Below, piece after piece: positions 7,147-22,012 of a stretch of 22,820 nt of DNA. The position numbers were made by a program, and so were the translations under genes. Location of the stretch: positions 1-22,820 of the IMG/VR virus record IMGVR_UViG_3300030389_000458; one strand, given 5' to 3'. Origin of the DNA: a virus. A model generated the notes under the pieces. That model saw nothing but the letters and a program-made list of their open reading frames with translations, ran no database searches and was not told the origin of the DNA. Within the stretch, counting starts at the first letter, position 1. Every line of letters starts with the position of its first letter.

Positions 7147-7794
7147 ATGAGTTGGACTTTATCATCATTAAAAACAGCTATACAAGATTACGCAGAAAGC
7201 ACTGAGTCAAGTTTTGTAACACATTTACCAGACTTTATAAAAAGTGCAGAAGAGCGTATATTAAAAAGTGTACAGCTTGATGTATTTAGAAAAAATGTAA
7301 CAGGTGCAGGTACAGCTAGTAATACTTACTTAGCTATGCCCACTGATTTTTTATCACCTTTTAGTTTAGCTGTAATAGATTCAAGTAATAAATATCACAT
7401 GTTAAAATTAAAACATGTATCATTTATACGTGATTTTACTCCTGCTGAAGGAACTACAGCACAACCTAAATATTACGCAGAGTTTGATGAGAATAGTTTT
7501 ATACTAGCCCCTACACCAGATTCAAATTATAACTTTGAGTTACATTATTTTTATAGACCAACTTCGCTAACCGCTACAGCCACAGGTAGCACTTGGCTCT
7601 CTACTAATGCAGTAAACGCTATGTTATACGGCAGTTTAGTAGAAGCTAATACTTACTTGAAAACTTTTGAAACAACACCAGTTTATGAGGCAAGGTTTCA
7701 AGAGGCTATAGCTACACTTAAAAATCTTGGTGAGGGTAAATCTACCCGAGACCAAAATAGATACGATGAAGTACGGAGAACACCCCAGTCATGA
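7147..7794 (+). CDS. Tail/neck adaptor-type protein
   Basis: Encodes 215 residues. It starts with an amphipathic helix (LSSLKTAIQDYAES), a segment DFIKSAEERILKSVQLDVFR, then LAMPTDFLSPFSLAVIDS and a YAEFDENSFILAPTPDSNYN beta-hairpin followed by FELHYFYRPTSL. This order, helices first, then P-x-D-F-L and a P-x-P-D-x-x-Y motif with an aromatic strand, is seen in phage neck and adaptor proteins related in layout to the gp4-like protein at 5662. C-terminal helices contain NAMLYGSLVEANTYLK. Two adaptor-like proteins close together are common in marine podovirus-type genomes. It overlaps the next gene by four bases (ATGA). Confidence 0.75.
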   Translation: MSWTLSSLKTAIQDYAESTESSFVTHLPDFIKSAEERILKSVQLDVFRKNVTGAGTASNTYLAMPTDFLSPFSLAVIDSSNKYHMLKLKHVSFIRDFTPAEGTTAQPKYYAEFDENSFILAPTPDSNYNFELHYFYRPTSLTATATGSTWLSTNAVNAMLYGSLVEANTYLKTFETTPVYEARFQEAIATLKNLGEGKSTRDQNRYDEVRRTPQS

Positions 7795-8525
7795 TAGAAA
7801 AAGAATTAGAAGGCAAGAGTATTGCCATAGTTGCTATGGGCGAGAGTCAGCTAGACTTTCACCTAAGTTTAATACACTCAAATGTTTACGATGAAGTTTG
7901 GGGAATAAATTGTATGGGGGCTATCACTAAATGTGATAGAGTCTTCATGTTAGACCCACCAAGTAGGTTTTTAGATACTGACGACGCAGGAACTCAAACA
8001 GGTATAATGCGTAGATGGTTGCCTGAAAACAAAGTACCTATTTACACCTGCACACTCGATGAAAGAGTACCTTCAGCTATACTCTACCCTTTAGAAGAAG
8101 TAGCTCAGGCTACTGATTGTGCTTACTTTAATAACACCATACCGTATGCTTTTGCTTTTGCTTTGTATAATAAAGTTAAAGCATTAAATTTATTTGGTAT
8201 AGATTTTAGTTATAAAGGTAACGTACACTTTGCCGAAGCTGGTAAAGGTTGTTGTGAGTACTGGTTAGCTAAATGTGTTGAGGCTGGTATGATTATCAAC
8301 GTAGCACCACGCTCAGGTTTATTAGATACTAACTCACCTATAGAGGAAAGGTTGTATGGTTATCATAGACTTGATGACCCAGATATATTAATAATAGATT
8401 CTGAGGGAACATACAGACAGGTTAAACTATCTTGGTATAACGATAAACTAAGAGAGGAACAACTTAAAAATATAACTGAAATTAGAACGGTTATGGACGG
8501 ACCACCTGAGGCTAAAAGATACTAA
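7791..8525 (+). CDS. MptE/DUF115-like Rossmann-fold protein
   Basis: Encodes 244 residues. KSIAIVAMGESQLDFHLS looks like a Rossmann strand and glycine/serine loop, followed by DEVWGINCMGAITKCDRVFM and a LDPPSRF turn. Later segments are KVKALNLFGIDFSYKGN, with a G-I-D-F/Y motif, and INVAPRSGLLDT. This pattern resembles the MptE-like/DUF115 group of small-molecule transferases and sialyltransferase-like proteins. The same type of protein occurs in marine phages between adaptor and tail genes. No signal peptide or membrane helix is visible. Enzyme activity and substrate are unknown; modification of a virion or host glycan or of a nucleotide is only a guess. ATGA overlaps the previous gene. Confidence 0.62.
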   Translation: MIEKELEGKSIAIVAMGESQLDFHLSLIHSNVYDEVWGINCMGAITKCDRVFMLDPPSRFLDTDDAGTQTGIMRRWLPENKVPIYTCTLDERVPSAILYPLEEVAQATDCAYFNNTIPYAFAFALYNKVKALNLFGIDFSYKGNVHFAEAGKGCCEYWLAKCVEAGMIINVAPRSGLLDTNSPIEERLYGYHRLDDPDILIIDSEGTYRQVKLSWYNDKLREEQLKNITEIRTVMDGPPEAKRY

Positions 8526-13720: not shown

Positions 13721-14071
13721 ATGGAAAGTGCTGTCACTCTTATACAAGAGGTTGGTTTTCCTATCGCAGCTGCCGTAGGTTTAGGTTGGTTTATATACAA
13801 ACTTATTATGCGTATTGTTGATGGCATGGAGACTAAACTTGATACTGTTGATGAAAAAGTAGAAGGTCAAATATCAGCATTAGAAGAAAGGTTAGGTACT
13901 AAACTTGACTCTCAACACGGTATATTAGTAGCATTGATAGATAGAGTTAGGAGTTTAGATAACGAAATAATAAGGCAGGATACACTAGTTAAAACTATTT
14001 TAGGTGTCCCGCAACTTATTGATAGTAATAAAATAGCTAAGGCTGACAGAGATGACCAAAGGAAAGACTGA
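13721..14071 (+). CDS. Membrane-anchored coiled-coil protein, holin-like
   Basis: Encodes 116 residues. One transmembrane helix (VGFPIAAAVGLGWFIYKLIM) is followed by a long charged helix with regular hydrophobic spacing (METKLDTVDEKVEGQISALE) and a polar tail. N-out single-helix proteins with this ending resemble BhlA/UviB-type holin-like proteins and are frequent in marine phages. Its end overlaps the csgF-like start by 20 bases, tying it to the curli-like block. It could be a holin, an i-spanin-like protein or an inner-membrane partner of the export pore. Sequence alone does not decide. Confidence 0.7.
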   Translation: MESAVTLIQEVGFPIAAAVGLGWFIYKLIMRIVDGMETKLDTVDEKVEGQISALEERLGTKLDSQHGILVALIDRVRSLDNEIIRQDTLVKTILGVPQLIDSNKIAKADRDDQRKD

Positions 14072-14540
14072 CGACAATATTTGGATATATAGAATCGCAG
14101 GGTTTCTCTGTATTTTCTTTTTTCTTGCAATTTTAACTAATCCTTTGTGGGCGGACACTATAACTTTTAAATTCAAAAACCCTAGCTTTAGTGGTTTAAA
14201 CACTAGTTCACACTACCTCACGATAGAAAACCAAGAGTTCAACCGTAAAGAGGCACTTAAAGCAGAAATAAAAGCTCTACAAGAACAAATAGAAAGAGAT
14301 AAAGAAAACACTACACTCGCTAGATTTATAAGGAATTTAGAAAGTCGTATCTATGCACAGCTTTCTAGACAGCTGGTAGAAAATTTATTTGGGGAAACGC
14401 CCAGTACAGAGGGTACTTTAACCCTTGAAGGCAACACTATTAAATATAGTGTTGTTGACGGAATAATAACTTTAACGATAACAGATGCAGATGGGAATGT
14501 TACGACTATATCTTTACCCGTTGGTAATTTTACTTTCTAG
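14052..14540 (+). CDS. csgF: CsgF-like curli assembly factor
   Basis: Encodes 162 residues. A hydrophobic segment (IAGFLCIFFFLAILTNPLWA) gives a Sec signal with predicted cleavage before DTITFKFKNPSFSG. That mature start is the CsgF signature: the E. coli protein begins with T-F-x-F-R-N-P-x-F-x-G, the segment that inserts into the CsgG channel. The middle is helical (residues about 68-115), and the C-terminus (LTLEGNTIKYSVVDGIITLT) matches the CsgF beta-domain D-Y-I-V-D-x-x-x-x-D-G-x-L-x-L pattern. Mature length near 128 residues compares with about 119 in E. coli. CsgF binds CsgG and positions the nucleator outside the outer membrane. It starts inside the upstream gene with AAGG nine bases ahead. 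Confidence 0.9.
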   Translation: MTKGKTDDNIWIYRIAGFLCIFFFLAILTNPLWADTITFKFKNPSFSGLNTSSHYLTIENQEFNRKEALKAEIKALQEQIERDKENTTLARFIRNLESRIYAQLSRQLVENLFGETPSTEGTLTLEGNTIKYSVVDGIITLTITDADGNVTTISLPVGNFTF

Positions 14541-15354
14541 TTGTAGCCTTACGCCTGTAGATAAAAGTCTTACAACTGCTGAAACTTTACCAAGTATTTT
14601 ACAAGCACAGTCTGAGGAGCTGTATAACGTAGCAGAACCTAAAATACCTATAGTGGTAGCAGTTTACCCTAATAGTTTTACCGATCAAACAGGTCAGCGT
14701 AAAAGTAATAGTGAGTTCGCTTTATTTAGCACAGCTTTGACACAAGCTCCTAATCATTTATTAATACGTTCGCTTAAAAATGCTTCAGGCGGTAAATTTT
14801 TTAGAGTAGCTGAAAGAGTAGGCTTAGATAACTTAACTAAAGAACGACAGTTAATACGTTCAGCTAGAGAACAAAATGAAGATAAGGACGGAGCTAAACC
14901 ACTTATGCCTTTGTTATTCGCTGGTGTTTTAGTGGAAGGTGCAGTGATAGGTTATGACACCAATACTAAAAGTGGTGGTATAGGAGCTAGGTATTTAGGC
15001 ATAGGCACTAGTAAACAATACAGAATAGATAATATTACCGTATCTTTACGTATGGTTAGTGTAGCCACGGGTGAAGTCCTTATAGATGTTTTAGTAAGTA
15101 AAGAAATTTATAGTTACGGTCAATCACAAGACGTATTTAAGTTCATTGAAGCGGGTACAGAGCTAGTAGAAATAGAGATGGGCGACACTCAAAATGAAAT
15201 TACTACACTAGCACTTTTAAGAGCTATAGAGAGCGGAGTTTTAGAAATTATAAAAATAGGGTATGATAAAGGTTTCTGGGAGGAAAAATATGAAACAATC
15301 GATATTGATAAGCCTGATTGTGATGCTGAGTGCATCGACAATATACGGGGCTGA
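14485..15354 (+). CDS. csgG: CsgG-like outer-membrane curli secretion channel
   Basis: Encodes 289 residues. Lipobox LLSSC places the lipid-anchored Cys near residue 20. Matches to E. coli CsgG run along its length: VVAVYPNSFTDQTGQ, FSTALTQ, ERVGLDNLTKERQLIRSARE, LVEGAVIGYDTNTKSGGIGA, ARYLGIG, RMVSVATGEVLI and ALLRAIESGVLEI. CsgG forms a nonameric lipoprotein channel that secretes curlin subunits. The lipobox requires one of the starts at 14485, 14491 or 14497, so overlap with csgF is 44-56 bases. In the constriction loop Phe56 of E. coli is kept before S-T-A, but Asn55 aligns with Leu and Tyr51 with a small polar residue. The C-terminal tail has a C-x3-C pair and overlaps the next gene by 65 bases. 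No good ribosome site is visible, suggesting coupling. Confidence 0.94.
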   Translation: MQMGMLRLYLYPLVILLSSCSLTPVDKSLTTAETLPSILQAQSEELYNVAEPKIPIVVAVYPNSFTDQTGQRKSNSEFALFSTALTQAPNHLLIRSLKNASGGKFFRVAERVGLDNLTKERQLIRSAREQNEDKDGAKPLMPLLFAGVLVEGAVIGYDTNTKSGGIGARYLGIGTSKQYRIDNITVSLRMVSVATGEVLIDVLVSKEIYSYGQSQDVFKFIEAGTELVEIEMGDTQNEITTLALLRAIESGVLEIIKIGYDKGFWEEKYETIDIDKPDCDAECIDNIRG

Positions 15355-16006
15355 TAATGAAATACATGTTGACCAAAGTGGAGCTACAGCTAATATAGAT
15401 TTAGAACAGTTAGGTTCTGGTAATATAATAGGTGGTTTAAATTCTGCAGCGGGCAGTTTAACTGCTTTAGATTTAGATGGGTTAAGTCTAACACTTGATA
15501 TAAATCAATTAGGAGACACAAATAAGTTTTTAGGTGACATACTAGGTGATAGTATTACAGGCTTTTTTGAGTTTGACGGTGATAGTAACACTTTTACTAT
15601 ACAGGGCGACCCTACTGATACTTACGGTATTGACAGTTCTAATTACAACGTAAGCGTAACAGGTAGTACTAATACCTTTACATTAGACCACGGTACAAGT
15701 GCTCTTGCTGCTACGTTAGATTTAGATTGGATTATACAGGGTGACGGTAACACTTTTGATTTTGATATAAATTACGATGGTGCTACTAACTATGTTGATG
15801 TTGACGGTGATAGCAATACAGTAAACTTTACAGGTTCTGGTTATGCTGGTGCTTACTTTTATTTAGATCAAACAGGTAACAGTAGAACTTTTAACATACA
15901 ACAACTGAGTACACAAGATAATGACTGGCTCAAGATTATTTCTAACGGTAATAATGGTACTGTTTGCGTCATTCAAAACGACCAAGGTACAAGCACAAGC
16001 TGTTGA
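15290..16006 (+). CDS. Secreted curlin-like repeat protein
   Basis: Encodes 238 residues. A signal peptide (MKQSILISLIVMLSASTIYG, cleavage near A-D-N) leads to about eight irregular repeats of form hydrophobic-x-hydrophobic-x-x-G-x-x-N-T-F-x-hydrophobic: FEFDGDSNTFTIQGD, VSVTGSTNTFTLDHG, WIIQGDGNTFDFD, VDVDGDSNTVNFTG and FYLDQTGNSRTFNIQQ among them. Curlin repeats share the Q/G-x-G-x-x-N ladder that forms amyloid beta-solenoids, and the gene directly follows csgG, so it is the likely export substrate (CsgA/CsgB analogue). Repeats vary in length and are rich in Asp. Two Cys, at about 226 and the last residue, could form a disulphide. GGGAGG six bases before ATG is the strongest ribosome site in the block, fitting high subunit supply. 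Earlier in-frame starts add nothing to the signal. Confidence 0.82.
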   Translation: MKQSILISLIVMLSASTIYGADNEIHVDQSGATANIDLEQLGSGNIIGGLNSAAGSLTALDLDGLSLTLDINQLGDTNKFLGDILGDSITGFFEFDGDSNTFTIQGDPTDTYGIDSSNYNVSVTGSTNTFTLDHGTSALAATLDLDWIIQGDGNTFDFDINYDGATNYVDVDGDSNTVNFTGSGYAGAYFYLDQTGNSRTFNIQQLSTQDNDWLKIISNGNNGTVCVIQNDQGTSTSC

Positions 16007-17033
16007 TATAGGGGATATTTCTGAATTAAGAGGTAACGCTCAAATAGTAAGGGATAAACCTTATCAGGCTGACCTTAAATTTGCTATACAAAGCAATGAT
16101 GAAGCTATTACTACTGATGGTAGGATGGCTATTACTTTTTTAGATGCATCTACAGTAAAACTTACTGAACACTCACAACTACTCATAGATGAATATATCT
16201 ATGACCCTGACCCTAGTAAATCAAAAATGTCTCTTAACTTTGCTTTAGGTACAGCTAGGTTTATAACGGGTAACTTAAACCGCATAGATAAACAGAACAT
16301 AAAACTAAGCACACCTACAGCGAATATCGCTATACGTGGCACAGATTTTACTGCTACTGTAGATGAACTAGGTAGAAGTTTAATCATACTTTTACCAGAC
16401 GCTTTGGGTTTATCAAGCGGTGAAATAGAGGTAGTTACCGCTATGGGTACAGTTATACTAAATAAACCTTATCAAGCTACTACGGTAAATGTTTTTGAGT
16501 CTGCACCTAGTAAACCAGTCATATTAGATTTAAGCTTAGATATTATTGATAACATGCTAATAGTCACACCGCCTAAAGAGGAACAAGTTTTAACAGAAGA
16601 AGCTAATGTTGTAAAAACTAATAATTTTTTAGATTTTAATGATTTAGATATAGATTACTTAGCTGAAGATTTTTTAGATGACAACAGTTTAGAATTTACA
16701 GAACTAGACATAAACTATTTAGATGTAAATTTTTTAGAAGACTTACTTGATATTCTTGACGTATTAGCTATAGAAGAGGAAAAAGATCAATTAGCTTTAG
16801 CTACAGGTATCAACGTAAGCGGAACTTTAATAGGTCAAGACGCTAACACTCAAATAACTACTATAATAACAGGTCAAACTATAAGCTTACGTAGAAAAGT
16901 GAGTGAAACTGCTAGAGTTGATTTAAATGTAGAAGGTAGTTACACAGTTATATTTATACAAGATGGTGTCTCTAATACAGTTAAAATAAACGGTGGTGGT
17001 GACTCAGTTATAACTATTAAACAGAGCAGTTAA
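15921..17033 (+). CDS. Secreted FecR-domain protein with curlin-like C-terminus
   Basis: Encodes 370 residues. Residues 1-27 are a signal peptide (LFLTVIMVLFASF, ending V-Q-A-Q-A). Residues about 28-170 are a FecR domain: ITTDGRMAITFLDASTVKLT, LLIDEYIYDP, the L-N-x-A-L-G-T-A-R-F-I-T-G strand and TPTANIAIRGTDFTATVDE are its landmarks. There is no DUF4880 or membrane segment, so this is a free periplasmic or exported form rather than an anti-sigma regulator. Residues 236-276 hold an acidic Leu/Asp duplication. The last 35 residues (FIQDGVSNTVKINGGGDS, then ITIKQS) follow the curlin Q-x-G-x-x-N ladder. It overlaps the curlin gene by 86 bases (53 if ATG 15954 is used). It may be a ligand of the CHASE2 cyclase next door, or a nucleator. 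Confidence 0.83.
   Translation: MTGSRLFLTVIMVLFASFKTTKVQAQAVDIGDISELRGNAQIVRDKPYQADLKFAIQSNDEAITTDGRMAITFLDASTVKLTEHSQLLIDEYIYDPDPSKSKMSLNFALGTARFITGNLNRIDKQNIKLSTPTANIAIRGTDFTATVDELGRSLIILLPDALGLSSGEIEVVTAMGTVILNKPYQATTVNVFESAPSKPVILDLSLDIIDNMLIVTPPKEEQVLTEEANVVKTNNFLDFNDLDIDYLAEDFLDDNSLEFTELDINYLDVNFLEDLLDILDVLAIEEEKDQLALATGINVSGTLIGQDANTQITTIITGQTISLRRKVSETARVDLNVEGSYTVIFIQDGVSNTVKINGGGDSVITIKQSS
16628..16747 (+). repeat. Two 60-bp tandem units inside the FecR-domain gene
   Basis: Units at 16628-16687 and 16688-16747 each open TTTAGA and encode about 20 acidic residues: LDFNDLDIDYLAEDFLDDNS then LEFTELDINYLDVNFLEDLL. The copies are clearly diverged, so the duplication is not recent. Confidence 0.75.
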
Positions 17034-17034
17034 T

Positions 17035-18783
17035 GTGAAAAAATATGTAATACCTTTATTGTTAATATTAGCTTTACCCTTAATATTTCAAAGTACACCT
17101 ACTGAAATATTAAAACTAAAAACCTTTGATGCATTGATAAAAACACCAGAGCACAGCGGTAATTTTATGATACTTAACATTACTGAAGAAGATATTGAAC
17201 GTGAGGGTGGTTACCCTTTACCTAGAAAAAGATTAGCAGATATACAGTTAGAAATACTGGGTAAGGGGGCGTTAGGTGTGGGTTGGGTTATATCTTTTCC
17301 ACAAGCTGATAGATTAGGTGGTGATGAAGACTTTGCTAGGTCTTTAGGTTATGCACCTAGTGTTTTAGCTACTTTTGAAACACCTAATAATTTATACCCT
17401 AAAACTACAGGTACAGTTATAAAAGGTCAAGATACTGGCGGTATATCGGTAAGCGGTGTAAAAGAAAATTATAATGCTTATGATAAAATACTTCAAGGTA
17501 TGGCCATAGCTCCCGTTGAAGCTGATCAATTAGTAAGGAGGATTCCCCTGTTACTTAAAACACCAGACGGTTGGTCAGCTTCTTTTGGGACTCAAGTTTT
17601 AAAAGTTCTTACTAATACACCCACTTACATAATAACTACTAACGAAAACGGTATACAAGAAATAGCGGTTAGGGGTTTACCACCAGTTAAAACCGACAGC
17701 TTAGGGCGTAAGTGGATTAGTTGGGTTGATACGCCTCAAACAGATTTACAAGAAATGAACGTAAACGGTAAGTTTGTGTTTGTAGGTATAACAGCTAACG
17801 GCGTTATGCCACAAGTTGCTACTCCAGTTGGGTTACTAGAACCACACAAAATACAAGCAGCATTATCAGAAAGTATCCTTATTGAAAATAGTCCTTACAT
17901 ACCTGATTGGGCTTTAGCTCTTGAGTTATTAATATTATTGACTACAGTTATTTTAGTTTGGTTTTTATTAATAAAACTAGGTATTACATGGGGGTTAGTA
18001 TTAAGCTTCCTTACGGCGTCTGTAACGGCTTTAGGGGGCTACTATTTAATTAGTAAAGGTTTACTTATAGACGTTACTTGGACTCTTATTAGCCAGTTTA
18101 TAAGCGGGGCTTTAGCTTTTTACCTTAGGTTTAGAGAACAATATAAATTACGTTTACTAATTAAAAAACAGTTTGAACACTACCTTGACCCGCGTCAAGT
18201 AAAACGTTTACAGAATAATCCTGATTTATTGAAGTTAGGCGGGGAAACTAGACGTTGTACGTTTTTATTCACTGACGTTAGAGGCTTTACTAATTTAAGT
18301 GAAAAACTACCACCTGAACAAGTAACTGAAATAATGAACAAAGTATTAACAGTACAAGTAACTTGTATTCAGGCACACGGAGGTATGGTAGATAAATTTA
18401 TAGGCGACGCATGTATGGCTATATTTAATGCCCCATTAGAATTAGATAATCATGAATTAAGAGCTATAACATGTGCTCAAGATATACGCACTGGTATACG
18501 TATGTTACAAAAAGAATTACCTGAACCTATATCAATAGGTATAGGCATTAACACTGGTGAAGCTGTAATAGGTAACATGGGCAGTGATACAAGGTTTGAT
18601 TACAGTGCTATAGGAGACGCTGTTAATACTGCTGCTAGACTTGAATCAGCAACCAAAGAAGTAGGCGTAGATTTATTAATAGGAGAAAATACTAAAAAAA
18701 GTTGTGATTTTAAGTTAAAATTATTAGATCCTATAAAAGTAAAGGGTAAAAAAGATTATTTAAAAATATATACGGTAAGGTAA
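17035..18783 (+). CDS. CHASE2-domain transmembrane adenylate cyclase (class III)
   Basis: Encodes 582 residues from GTG (the overlapping ATG is followed at once by TGA). Order: transmembrane helix at 4-20; CHASE2 extracytoplasmic sensor about 28-280, with FDALIKTPEHSGNFMILNIT and GKFVFVGITANGV landmarks; three helices about 290-375; class III cyclase domain about 400-582. Catalytic residues are present: metal Asp414 (FTDVRGFT) and Asp458 (DKFIGDACM), adenine-type Lys454, Ser524 at the Asp/Thr purine position, and Asn531 and Arg535 (VNTAARLE) for the transition state. It should make cAMP from ATP at the inner membrane in response to a periplasmic cue. FecR-CHASE2-cyclase neighbours are known in bacterial operons; finding the set in a phage is unusual. 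It starts one base after the FecR gene. Confidence 0.92.
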   Translation: MKKYVIPLLLILALPLIFQSTPTEILKLKTFDALIKTPEHSGNFMILNITEEDIEREGGYPLPRKRLADIQLEILGKGALGVGWVISFPQADRLGGDEDFARSLGYAPSVLATFETPNNLYPKTTGTVIKGQDTGGISVSGVKENYNAYDKILQGMAIAPVEADQLVRRIPLLLKTPDGWSASFGTQVLKVLTNTPTYIITTNENGIQEIAVRGLPPVKTDSLGRKWISWVDTPQTDLQEMNVNGKFVFVGITANGVMPQVATPVGLLEPHKIQAALSESILIENSPYIPDWALALELLILLTTVILVWFLLIKLGITWGLVLSFLTASVTALGGYYLISKGLLIDVTWTLISQFISGALAFYLRFREQYKLRLLIKKQFEHYLDPRQVKRLQNNPDLLKLGGETRRCTFLFTDVRGFTNLSEKLPPEQVTEIMNKVLTVQVTCIQAHGGMVDKFIGDACMAIFNAPLELDNHELRAITCAQDIRTGIRMLQKELPEPISIGIGINTGEAVIGNMGSDTRFDYSAIGDAVNTAARLESATKEVGVDLLIGENTKKSCDFKLKLLDPIKVKGKKDYLKIYTVR

Positions 18784-19022: not shown

Positions 19023-19225
19023 GAACTCCTACAGTACAAGATGTAGCTAAAGATTTAGCAGTATCTAAAAAAGAAAACGCAGAACGTTGGAAAACTGCTT
19101 TTAACGAGTTTGCTGATATTAAACAAGAAATAGCTTCGATAAACAATACTATAAAAATGGCTACGTTTGGCGTATTTAGTTTCATAGGAGCATTAACTAT
19201 AGCGGTAGTAACGGTGATTATATGA
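19019..19225 (+). CDS. Small tail-anchored membrane protein, holin- or XhlA-like
   Basis: Encodes 68 residues. The N-terminal 45 residues are charged and helical (VAKDLAVSKKENAERWKTAF), and a C-terminal membrane helix (MATFGVFSFIGALTIAVVTV) ends the protein. This soluble-helix then C-terminal-anchor design resembles XhlA/hemolysin-associated proteins that act with a holin. It overlaps both neighbours by four bases, and the next gene is a clear holin-like protein, so it is part of the lysis module. Cell membrane location is predicted from the helix. Confidence 0.72.
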   Translation: MRTPTVQDVAKDLAVSKKENAERWKTAFNEFADIKQEIASINNTIKMATFGVFSFIGALTIAVVTVII

Positions 19226-19701
19226 AAGGATTATTAAAAAATATAGTGGGGGCTGTAGCTCCTACACTAGGAACAGCCATAGCTGGACCTATGGGTAATA
19301 TGGCTTTAGGTAAAATAGCTGAAGTATTAGGTTGTCCATCAGACCAAAAATCTGTAGAAAAAGCAGTACAAAATGCAACACCAGAACAAATGATTGAGCT
19401 TAAAAAAGCTGAACAAGAGTTTGAAGTACAGATGAAAAAACTTGATGTAGATGTTTTTAAACTTGAAGCACAAGAAAAACAACATGCTAGGGGTATGTTT
19501 AGTAAAGATTGGACTGCTCGTATTATAGGCTTATTTACTATAGGTGGTTTTTTAGGCTACATATTTTTAGTAACGTTACAACCACCTGAACAAAACAGTG
19601 AAGCACTGATTAATTTAGTGTTAGGTTATTTAGGGGGATTAGCGAGTGCAATTATTTCGTTTTATTTCGGAGCGTCTCACACCAACGATAAAGGAGAGTA
19701 A
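19222..19701 (+). CDS. Phage holin, three-hydrophobic-segment type
   Basis: Encodes 159 residues. A Gly/Ala-rich hydrophobic N-terminus (VGAVAPTLGTAIAGPMGNMA) is followed by a charged helix of about 55 residues (LKKAEQEFEVQMKKLDVDVF) and two strong membrane helices: RIIGLFTIGGFLGYIFLVTL and LVLGYLGGLASAIISFYFGA. This layout with K-D-W-T-A-R-x-I-G before the first helix is that of the marine and proteobacterial 3TM holin family. The gene immediately precedes the lysozyme, with one base between them. It should control the time at which the endolysin reaches the cell wall. Confidence 0.82.
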   Translation: MKGLLKNIVGAVAPTLGTAIAGPMGNMALGKIAEVLGCPSDQKSVEKAVQNATPEQMIELKKAEQEFEVQMKKLDVDVFKLEAQEKQHARGMFSKDWTARIIGLFTIGGFLGYIFLVTLQPPEQNSEALINLVLGYLGGLASAIISFYFGASHTNDKGE

Positions 19702-19702
19702 T

Positions 19703-20146
19703 ATGAAAATATCACAAGAAGGATTATCTTTGATAAAAAAATTCGAGGGCTGTGAGCTTGAAGCGTATAAGTGTGCTGCGGGTGTTTGGACAATAGGTTA
19801 TGGCTCAACTAAAGGCGTAAAAGAAGGCGATACTATTAAACAAGAAGACGCTGATAAATTACTTACTGAAGAGATGAGTGAGTACGAGGGTTACATAAAT
19901 GATATGGTAGAGTCTGATTTAAAACAGAATGAGTTTGACGCTTTAGTATCATGGGTTTACAACCTTGGACCATCTAACTTATCTTCAAGTACGCTCCTAC
20001 AAAGGTTAAATAATAAAGATTGGGATGATATTCCTAATCAAATAAAAAGGTGGAATAAGGCTGGGGGCGTAGTGAAACAAGGTTTAATACGCAGACGTGA
20101 AGCAGAAGCTTTATTATTTGAAGGTAAGGAGTGGCACGAGGTTTAA
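19703..20146 (+). CDS. GH24 endolysin (T4-type lysozyme family)
   Basis: Encodes 147 residues from ATG 19703, which has AAGGAGAG ahead of it; the upstream in-frame ATG at 19646 lies inside the holin gene and lacks a site. Glu15 in KKFEGCELEAYKC is the catalytic acid, Thr30 in GVWTIGYGST the catalytic threonine, and Cys24 takes the place of the T4 Asp, a known E-C-T variant in GH24 endolysins. Later conserved parts are FDALVSWVYNLGPSNLSSST, LLQRLNNKDWDDIP and GLIRRREAEALLFEG. No signal or SAR helix is seen, so release depends on a holin. It cleaves N-acetylmuramic acid-N-acetylglucosamine bonds. Confidence 0.95.
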   Translation: MKISQEGLSLIKKFEGCELEAYKCAAGVWTIGYGSTKGVKEGDTIKQEDADKLLTEEMSEYEGYINDMVESDLKQNEFDALVSWVYNLGPSNLSSSTLLQRLNNKDWDDIPNQIKRWNKAGGVVKQGLIRRREAEALLFEGKEWHEV

Positions 20147-22012
20147 ATGGCTATAAGTAAAATCAACTTTAGACCTGGGATTATGCGTGAAGGTACAGCA
20201 TATTCTAATGAGGGCGGTTGGTTTGACGTTAATAAAGTAAGGTTTAAAGCTGGTTTACCACAAAAAATAGGTGGTTGGCAAAAAGATAACTTAAATACTT
20301 TTTTAGGTACTTGTAGAGCTTTGATAGGTTGGATTGATTTAGAGGGTACTAAATATTTAGGCTTAGGTACACATTTAAAATACTATATTGAACTAGGTGC
20401 TACTTTTAATGATGTTACTCCTTTACGTACTACTACTAGTGCGGGTGATGTTACCTTTAGTGCTACTAACGGTAGTAGTTCAATAACCGTAACTGATACA
20501 GCACACGGAGCAGTACTAAATGATTTTGTTACTTTTAGCGGTGCAGCATCTTTAGGTGGTAATATAACCGCAGCAGTTTTAAATCAAGAATATCAAATAG
20601 TTAGTATTACTAATAATAATAGTTACGTTATAACCGCTAAAGATACTAGTGGTAGTACTGTTACGGCTAATTCAAGTGATAGCGGTAACGGGGGGAGTAG
20701 CGTAGTAGGAGCTTACCAAATAAACGTAGGTTTAGATGTATACATAGACAGCTCAGGTTTCGGTAGTGGTACATGGAACTCTGGTACTTGGGGCGGTAAT
20801 ACAGCCCTTACTGACTCTAATCAATTAAGATTGTGGACACACGATCATTTTGGTGAAGATTTATTAATCAATGTCCGTGGTGGAGGAATATATTACTGGG
20901 ATGAAAGTAGCGGAGTCACTAGTAGAGCCGTAGAACTTTCTAGTTTAAGCGGTAGTAACTTAGCTCCTACTAAAGGTAGTCAGGTATTAGTATCAGAAAC
21001 TGATAGACATATAATAGTTTTAGGAGCTGACCCTATAGTAGGTAGTTCACGTAGCGGTATAAGTGACCCTATGTTAATAGCTTTTGGTGACCAAGAAAGT
21101 GCCACTGAGTTTGAGCCTTTACTAACTAATACAGCGGGTGATTTAAGATTATCTGAAGGTAGTAAAATCATAGGCGGGGTAAAAGCTAGGCAAGAAGTAT
21201 TAGTATGGACTGATACCGCATTATATAGCATGCAATTTATTGGACCGCCTTTTACTTTCGGTTTAAATTTAATTAATAACGCTAGTGGTTTAATATCGCC
21301 TAACGGGGCAGTGGTCGCTCCTAACGGTGTGTTTTGGATGGGTTACGATAACTTTTACGTTTATACAGGTAACGTACAAAAACTACCGTGCACCGTGCTA
21401 AGCTACGTATTTGATGATTTAAACAGTAGCCAAGCACATAAATTTTTTGGGTTTACTAATACGGAGTTTGATGAAGTAGGTTGGTTTTACTGCTCAGCTG
21501 ATAGTATAGAGATAGACCGTTACGTAGTTTTTGATTACGCTGATAAAGTTTGGACTTACGGTCAAATATCACGTACAGCTTGGCTTGATCAAGGCACAGT
21601 AGATTATCCTAGAGCTACAGCTGATAATTATTTGTATCAACACGAGTTCGGTTATAACGATGACGGTAATCCTATGACTGATGTATTTATAGAAAGCTCA
21701 GATTTTGATATAGGCGACGGTGATCAGTTCGCTTTTATAAGAAGAATAATACCTGACGTTAGGTTTTTAAATAATAGTAATGGCGGTCAGGTAAACATTG
21801 TATTAAAAACAAGAAATTTTCCAGGTGAGTCACTAAGTACTTCAAGCACTAACGCTATAAGCGGTTCCACTACGCAATCACACGTTAGAGCCAGAGGTAG
21901 ACAAGCCGTAGTACGTTTAGAATCAGACGATGATGATACTAACGCAAACGATGATACAGGGTGGAGACTAGGTTTACTCAGGATGGATATACAGAATGAC
22001 GGTAGACGATGA
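20147..22012 (+). CDS. P22 gp10-like tail stabilisation protein
   Basis: Encodes 621 residues. The N-terminus ISKINFRPGIMREGTAYSNE and the next GGWFDVNKVRFKAGLPQKIG are highly typical of the marine phage version of this tail hub protein. Beta-propeller-like repeats follow (RALIGWIDLEGTKYLGLGTH, LWTHDHFGEDLLINVRGGGI, RQEVLVWTDTALYSMQFIGP, VFWMGYDNFYVYTG). Residues about 100-190 form a Ser/Thr-rich inserted domain with repeated Asn/Ser strands. The C-terminus (GWRLGLLRMDIQNDGRR) closes the last blade. In P22, gp10 plugs and stabilises the portal-tail channel. Together with the gp4-like protein it supports a short-tailed virion. ATG directly follows the lysozyme stop. Confidence 0.85.
   Translation: MAISKINFRPGIMREGTAYSNEGGWFDVNKVRFKAGLPQKIGGWQKDNLNTFLGTCRALIGWIDLEGTKYLGLGTHLKYYIELGATFNDVTPLRTTTSAGDVTFSATNGSSSITVTDTAHGAVLNDFVTFSGAASLGGNITAAVLNQEYQIVSITNNNSYVITAKDTSGSTVTANSSDSGNGGSSVVGAYQINVGLDVYIDSSGFGSGTWNSGTWGGNTALTDSNQLRLWTHDHFGEDLLINVRGGGIYYWDESSGVTSRAVELSSLSGSNLAPTKGSQVLVSETDRHIIVLGADPIVGSSRSGISDPMLIAFGDQESATEFEPLLTNTAGDLRLSEGSKIIGGVKARQEVLVWTDTALYSMQFIGPPFTFGLNLINNASGLISPNGAVVAPNGVFWMGYDNFYVYTGNVQKLPCTVLSYVFDDLNSSQAHKFFGFTNTEFDEVGWFYCSADSIEIDRYVVFDYADKVWTYGQISRTAWLDQGTVDYPRATADNYLYQHEFGYNDDGNPMTDVFIESSDFDIGDGDQFAFIRRIIPDVRFLNNSNGGQVNIVLKTRNFPGESLSTSSTNAISGSTTQSHVRARGRQAVVRLESDDDDTNANDDTGWRLGLLRMDIQNDGRR

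Follow-up and report, generated by a model that had tools for sequence, protein, structure and literature searches.

The 22,820-base virus record analyzed here (IMG/VR record IMGVR_UViG_3300030389_000458, positions 1 to 22,820; hereafter the window), a fragment of an HTVC023P-like podovirus, carries at 14052-18783 five consecutive + strand genes for a CsgF-like protein, a CsgG pore, a curlin-type protein, a secreted FecR-domain protein, and a CHASE2-adenylate cyclase (csgF, csgG, curlin, fecR, and CHASE2/AC). We propose, with about even confidence, that this podovirus bears the whole alphaproteobacterial curli operon together with its own envelope sensor, exporting fibers and sensing through a FecR-CHASE2-cyclic AMP (cAMP) route. 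A five-gene row between phage genes had been predicted from the DNA, and the open reading frames (ORFs) and Pfam matches to CsgF, CsgG, FecR, CHASE2, and Guanylate_cyc confirmed it at these coordinates and on this strand. The original prediction had taken the combination with a cyclase to be new, but a description of these genes dates from 2022, and the window adds another example of a known module: Wittmers et al. 2022 (PMC9599517) reported it, with FecR and adenylate cyclase, in HTVC023P-type podoviruses and pelagimyophages, together with its ocean-wide distribution and metatranscriptomic expression. The accompanying statement that CsgG/CsgF occur in phages of streamlined bacteria was right (PMC9599517); both are also known from related myophages (Zaragoza-Solas 2020, PMC7029224; Buchholz 2022, PMC9004378). 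The CHASE2 domain is unnamed in these three papers, and we found neither the bacterial source operon nor the scarcity of cyclic nucleotide monophosphate (cNMP) receptors, both described below, reported in the literature.

The module genes and the gene preceding them are:
13721-14071, + strand: small membrane protein, 116 aa, with one transmembrane (TM) helix and a coiled coil (family alignment)
14052-14540, + strand: CsgF-like protein (Pfam CsgF 3e-19, cut-off passed)
14485-15354, + strand: CsgG outer-membrane curli secretion pore (Pfam CsgG 3e-46)
15263-16006, + strand: curlin-type (CsgA/B-like) secreted protein (GxxN repeats, family Curlin_rpt matches, AlphaFold)
15921-17033, + strand: secreted FecR-domain protein (Pfam FecR 7e-10; AlphaFold model)
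17035-18783, + strand: membrane-anchored CHASE2 sensor with class IIIb adenylate cyclase (Pfam CHASE2 9e-23, Guanylate_cyc 2e-20)

Curli secretion genes

The CsgF-like protein has a signal sequence followed by a conserved N-terminal FxNPxFxG motif, and residues F41, P44, F46, and G48 are invariant in the family alignment; its match to solved E. coli CsgF is weak and N-terminal (E=0.045). Solved E. coli CsgG (3x2r) matches the window CsgG over its full length (5e-68), and the lipobox cysteine of the lipoprotein signal (C20) is invariant in the family.

For the third gene, the Pfam curlin search of the 15263-16006 product alone gave no match, so the predicted curlin profile held at the level of the family and not for the window protein itself: Curlin_rpt was matched by 10 of 34 family members, and a bacterial homologue exceeds the Pfam curlin cut-off. 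The window protein contains 10 GxxN motifs, compared to 2.7 expected from shuffles. Its AlphaFold model (pLDDT, predicted local distance difference test, 79.5) realigned with VIA to CsgA 8c50 as the top match (Z 19.1, 195 residues) and to CsgA 8enq (Z 12.0), whereas Foldseek alone found no confident match for the model in the PDB (best E 0.4). β-Solenoids resemble each other. Because of this resemblance, and because Foldseek did not rank CsgA confidently, the assignment as a predicted curlin-type protein draws on the GxxN repeats, the family matches, and the model together, and on none of them alone. The curlin start is more likely at 15290 (codon 10, an invariant Met in the alignment). Adjoining module genes overlap by about 56 nt (14485-14540), 92 nt (15263-15354; about 65 nt with the start at 15290), and 86 nt (15921-16006), and overlaps are also present in relatives, which suggests translational coupling.

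The components that define a type VIII secretion system (T8SS), a CsgG pore, CsgF, and a secreted curlin-repeat substrate (the last through family and model), are present in the window, and we infer that the module represents type VIII (curli) secretion genes, with fiber formation predicted. A Pfam scan of the module ORFs did not match CsgE; PMC9599517 states that alphaproteobacterial modules have no CsgE.

FecR-domain protein and CHASE2-adenylate cyclase

The FecR protein comprises a signal peptide, a FecR domain (residues ~30-190), a linker, and a C-terminal β domain (~300-370). A Foldseek search with its model returned the PupR cell-surface-signalling domain (6ovk, 6e-5) and a putative anti-sigma factor (4m0n, 4e-5). 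The Pfam scan detected no anti-sigma region in the protein, and the module contains no sigma gene; with the signal peptide, this ruled out a FecR-type iron-signalling sigma regulator. The same features bear on an option raised in PMC9599517, in which the pore imports scarce solutes (siderophores, vitamins) and FecR acts as an iron regulator. The FecR family name and the lack of a CsgE match in the scanned module ORFs fit such a role; it is nevertheless improbable, since the protein is secreted without a detected anti-sigma region, is paired with a CHASE2 cyclase instead of a TonB receptor or sigma factor, and the curlin gene is left unexplained. FecR proteins also share a conserved C-terminal GG..ITIxQ that resembles the last curlin repeat; reading the FecR C-terminus (QDGVSN, terminal ITIxQ) as a curlin repeat was unsupported (profile comparison probability 3.7%; p ~0.05 in shuffles).

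Of the 93 alphaproteobacterial CHASE2-cyclases listed, 24 have a FecR match no more than 6 kb away, so the two are common neighbors outside curli loci. A biofilm operon contains a FecR/CHASE2-kinase pair (BiofilmReg; PMC5192318), and S. meliloti CHASE2 cyclases act through the outer-membrane protein NsrA (PMC13001267). By analogy, these observations together support a relay from a periplasmic partner to CHASE2.

In the cyclase, hydrophobic segments at residues 1-26 (the N-terminal TM) and 288-339 lie on either side of the CHASE2 domain, the arrangement of a CHASE2 sensor. The catalytic part has its nearest solved relatives in CyaB (3r5g), Anabaena 2w01, and CyaC (1wc1), all class III adenylate cyclases. 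In this class, Asp414 and Asp458 bind metal, Lys454 and Ser/Thr524 recognize the purine, and Asn531 and Arg535 act on the transition state. Each of 99 phage cyclases and 4 others retains all six (D414, K454, D458, S/T524, N531, R535); by its residues the enzyme is a class IIIb adenylate cyclase, and cAMP synthesis is predicted. An export block fused to a CHASE2 cyclase had been proposed; CHASE2 is indeed fused to the cyclase domain, but the export genes and the cyclase are separate ORFs, and their fusion was ruled out.

In PADLOC, the cyclase domain gave PycC matches (4e-29), as it would if it were a Pycsar-like defense or counter-defense enzyme unrelated to export. However, the PycC models themselves fall within the class III cyclase superfamily, adenylate cyclases are the nearest relatives of known structure, and the purine-type K and S/T are conserved. 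No Pycsar effector is adjacent (the neighbors are FecR, a 78-aa ORF, and lysis genes), and in phages and bacteria alike the cyclase stays linked to curli genes, which makes a defense role highly improbable.

Conservation of the module in phages

Of 80 related viral loci found via the cyclase, 28 had csgG and enough flank, and the order tm(1-2)-csgF-csgG-curlin-fecR-cyclase was present in 28/28 of these independent podovirus loci. An assembly chimera was ruled out by the same gene order in 28 independent contigs; the co-occurrence search suggested with the original prediction gave all five genes together in each of them and no bacterial-phage misjoin. Among myovirus loci found via CsgG, the cyclase was also present in 17 of the 18 with enough flank. 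Every module gene had a dN/dS (nonsynonymous to synonymous substitution rate ratio) of 0.03-0.13 in a single comparison of the window with locus L002, values somewhat biased by the overlapping genes. Judged from these comparisons, purifying selection acts on the module genes, which are inherited together. Phage-type curli modules also occur on contigs filed under Sphingobacteriales (L087), Candidatus Pelagibacter (L088), and Pirellulales (L124) genomes; these resemble phage contigs that were binned with bacteria. CsgG is also encoded by a record of 1499 bases under the name Salmonella phage S.Kent (OR851715.1), which may be a piece of host DNA deposited as phage.

The small membrane protein belongs to this conserved block, with one or two gene copies before csgF in all 28 podovirus loci and a dN/dS of 0.03. 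Its family consists of single-helix proteins of 93-116 aa. The gene preceding csgF, in one to two copies, is labelled 'histidine kinase' (HK) in PMC9599517. No kinase domain (HisKA/HATPase_c) was detected in 14 family members, and a search of the window together with 15 phage records gave no HATPase_c (positive control 14/14), so the small protein does not qualify as a histidine kinase. By position and copy number, the published 'histidine kinase' is most likely this small one-helix coiled-coil protein.

A bacterial operon with the same sensor

Of the 80 bacterial loci whose CsgG is closest to that of the phage, three, all alphaproteobacterial, contain csgF-csgG-curlin(1-2)-fecR-CHASE2/AC: Hyphomonas sp. 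TMED17 (L085) and two Caulobacteraceae metagenome-assembled genomes (L084, L086). Their flanks are chromosomal, with TonB receptors and acyl-CoA dehydrogenase among the neighbors, and the L085 operon lies on a 705 kb contig. In the CsgG tree, the three bacterial operons and the phages are joined against 32 other bacterial rows (support 100/100), and in the cyclase tree against 29 alphaproteobacterial CHASE2 cyclases (SH-aLRT, Shimodaira-Hasegawa-like approximate likelihood ratio test, 100). Since the two trees agree, the operon with its sensor existed as a unit, and FecR and the cyclase came along with the export genes. The trees do not settle the branching order of the podovirus, myovirus, and bacterial lineages or the direction of transfer, including transfer from myovirus to podovirus; the podovirus copies are not nested inside the myovirus copies. 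The small TM gene is missing from all three bacterial operons and is therefore a phage addition.

According to PMC9599517, curli operons of bacteria do not include FecR and the cyclase. Because three bacterial genomes carry the operon with fecR and CHASE2/AC, this statement needs revision. CsgF was found in 34 of 299 genomes drawn from the bacterial order, and the phage type stood out in only one genome of a second draw; the phage-type operon looks rare in bacteria.

Genomic context and the lysis alternative

The left part of the window has genes for a nuclease, a major head protein (MCP), a GroES-like co-chaperonin, and tail proteins, and the module is flanked by phage-type genes (GroES, major head protein, tail and stabilization proteins, endolysin). 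Downstream of the module lie:
19222-19701, + strand: holin-like protein, lysis block (phrog_1544 2e-23; weak GTA_holin_3TM)
19646-20146, + strand: endolysin, lysis block (Pfam Phage_lysozyme 2e-47)
20147-22012, + strand: head-tail stabilization/structural protein (phrog_3287 3e-62; tblastn HTVC023P/027P, DSL-LC04)

The MCP is 72% identical to that of HTVC023P, 67% to HTVC027P, and 75% to the lake phage DSL-LC04. On these identities, which place it with the HTVC023P-type capsids, the window is assigned to an HTVC023P-like podovirus, and SAR11 is the likely host, judged from relatives. The HTVC023P type was delimited in PMC9599517 by a PolA similarity of at least 45%; polA was not recognized within the 22.8 kb fragment. 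Scans of the window for tRNA genes and Rfam families gave no matches, and a promoter scan gave fewer matches than in shuffles. A 244-aa protein in the tail-gene region (7791-8525) has no Pfam or PHROG match.

The module stands immediately before the holin-like and endolysin genes in the window and in many relatives, and a narrowed CsgG barrel was modelled for the myophage Melnitz in PMC9004378, where CsgG/CsgF were suggested to form a lysis-related channel (pinholin- or secretin-like); the other genes would then regulate its opening. Against this, CsgG keeps its lipobox and its full-length likeness to E. coli CsgG, and a curlin with a CsgA-like model is retained beside it under purifying selection. 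Moreover, the CsgG pore is of the outer-membrane type, whereas holins target the inner membrane; bacteria have this operon, too, without lysis genes, and the myophage modules adjoin baseplate genes instead. We consider a lysis channel unlikely.

Proposed function

In the export-and-sensing model proposed here, the infected cell would insert the CsgG-CsgF pore late in infection, and the exported curlin would form surface fibers. The periplasmic FecR protein would signal secretion or the state of the envelope to CHASE2, which would switch cAMP synthesis. The likeliest benefit would be a fiber coat that holds neighboring cells or debris near released progeny, with protection from late superinfection ranking second. 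That the fibers serve chiefly to keep out a second phage or to hide receptors of the infected cell, as proposed in PMC9599517, is unlikely: a surface amyloid could cover receptors, but exclusion genes are usually early, and the place of the module among tail and lysis genes points to late expression.

Several observations weigh against export and sensing as outlined. Late expression is read from position only, and contact between FecR and CHASE2 from adjacency only. The window capsid is as near to the lake phage DSL-LC04 as to HTVC023P, which leaves the host unestablished, and no clumping was seen with the OM43 phage Melnitz, a carrier of the module (PMC9004378). Finally, a search for cNMP-binding domains, blind to cAMP receptors of any other kind, gave matches in just 11 of the 197 SAR11-family genomes. 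It gave none in the 15 phage records, among them the complete HTVC008M and Melnitz. The matches in the 11 genomes were mostly weak and in proteins of 870-1000 aa. Class III cyclases and CsgG each occurred in only three SAR11-family genomes; in two of these, both were on a single contig with about 3-4 kb between them, which is what binned phage contigs would give.

The phage thus appears to make cAMP, as predicted, where no standard receptor is evident, and the cAMP target is unexplained because cNMP-binding domains are so rare in the SAR11 family and gave no match in the 15 phage records. Amyloid export coupled to cAMP signalling, as originally predicted, fits in its parts (CsgG at 5e-68, a CsgA-like model, an intact active site) and less well in the scarcity of receptors. 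An orphan circuit, in which a sensor of amyloid export makes cAMP in a largely receptor-less host lineage and a non-CRP target times lysis or another late step, seems to us quite unlikely.

Phages of the most abundant ocean bacteria would supply their hosts with a complete predicted device for amyloid export, which is missing from those cells. The bacterial operon points to the source of FecR and the cyclase, whose role could be studied in a possibly culturable bacterium, without a SAR11 phage system. The conserved cyclase active site, set against the near absence of recognized cAMP receptors, poses a precise, testable puzzle.

Comparison with known systems

E. coli curli (T8SS) and the window share the CsgG pore, CsgF, and a curlin substrate; in the window, CsgE, CsgD, and CsgC were not recognized, FecR and the cyclase are added, and there is one curlin. 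The module of PMC9599517 has the same genes, order ('HK', CsgF, CsgG, CsgA/B, FecR, adenylate cyclase), and phage type, but the window has no second curlin gene separating fecR from the cyclase, and the 'HK' slot is occupied by the small TM/coiled-coil protein. HTVC008M (Pelagibacter) and Melnitz (Methylophilales) carry homologues of CsgF, CsgG, curlin repeat, FecR, and CHASE2-cyclase in order, the cyclases being 32-33% identical to that of the window; they differ in being myoviruses, with an extra gene between fecR and the cyclase and with baseplate genes, not endolysin, next to the module. Although PMC9004378 describes csgA/csgB as missing from Melnitz, two genes are annotated as curlin-associated repeats in its record (L083, MZ577097.1), along with FecR and a cyclase.

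The BiofilmReg operon (PMC5192318) and S. meliloti NsrA (PMC13001267) likewise combine a periplasmic or outer-membrane partner with a CHASE2 output enzyme, but with a histidine-kinase output, a LysM domain, or NsrA, and not with curli. The three alphaproteobacterial operons share the csgF-csgG-curlin-fecR-CHASE2/AC row with the window and are its nearest sampled bacterial relatives in both trees; they differ in being chromosomal, in the missing small TM gene, in a cyclase of about 690 aa with a C-terminal extension, and in curlin repeats that are more canonical than those of the window.

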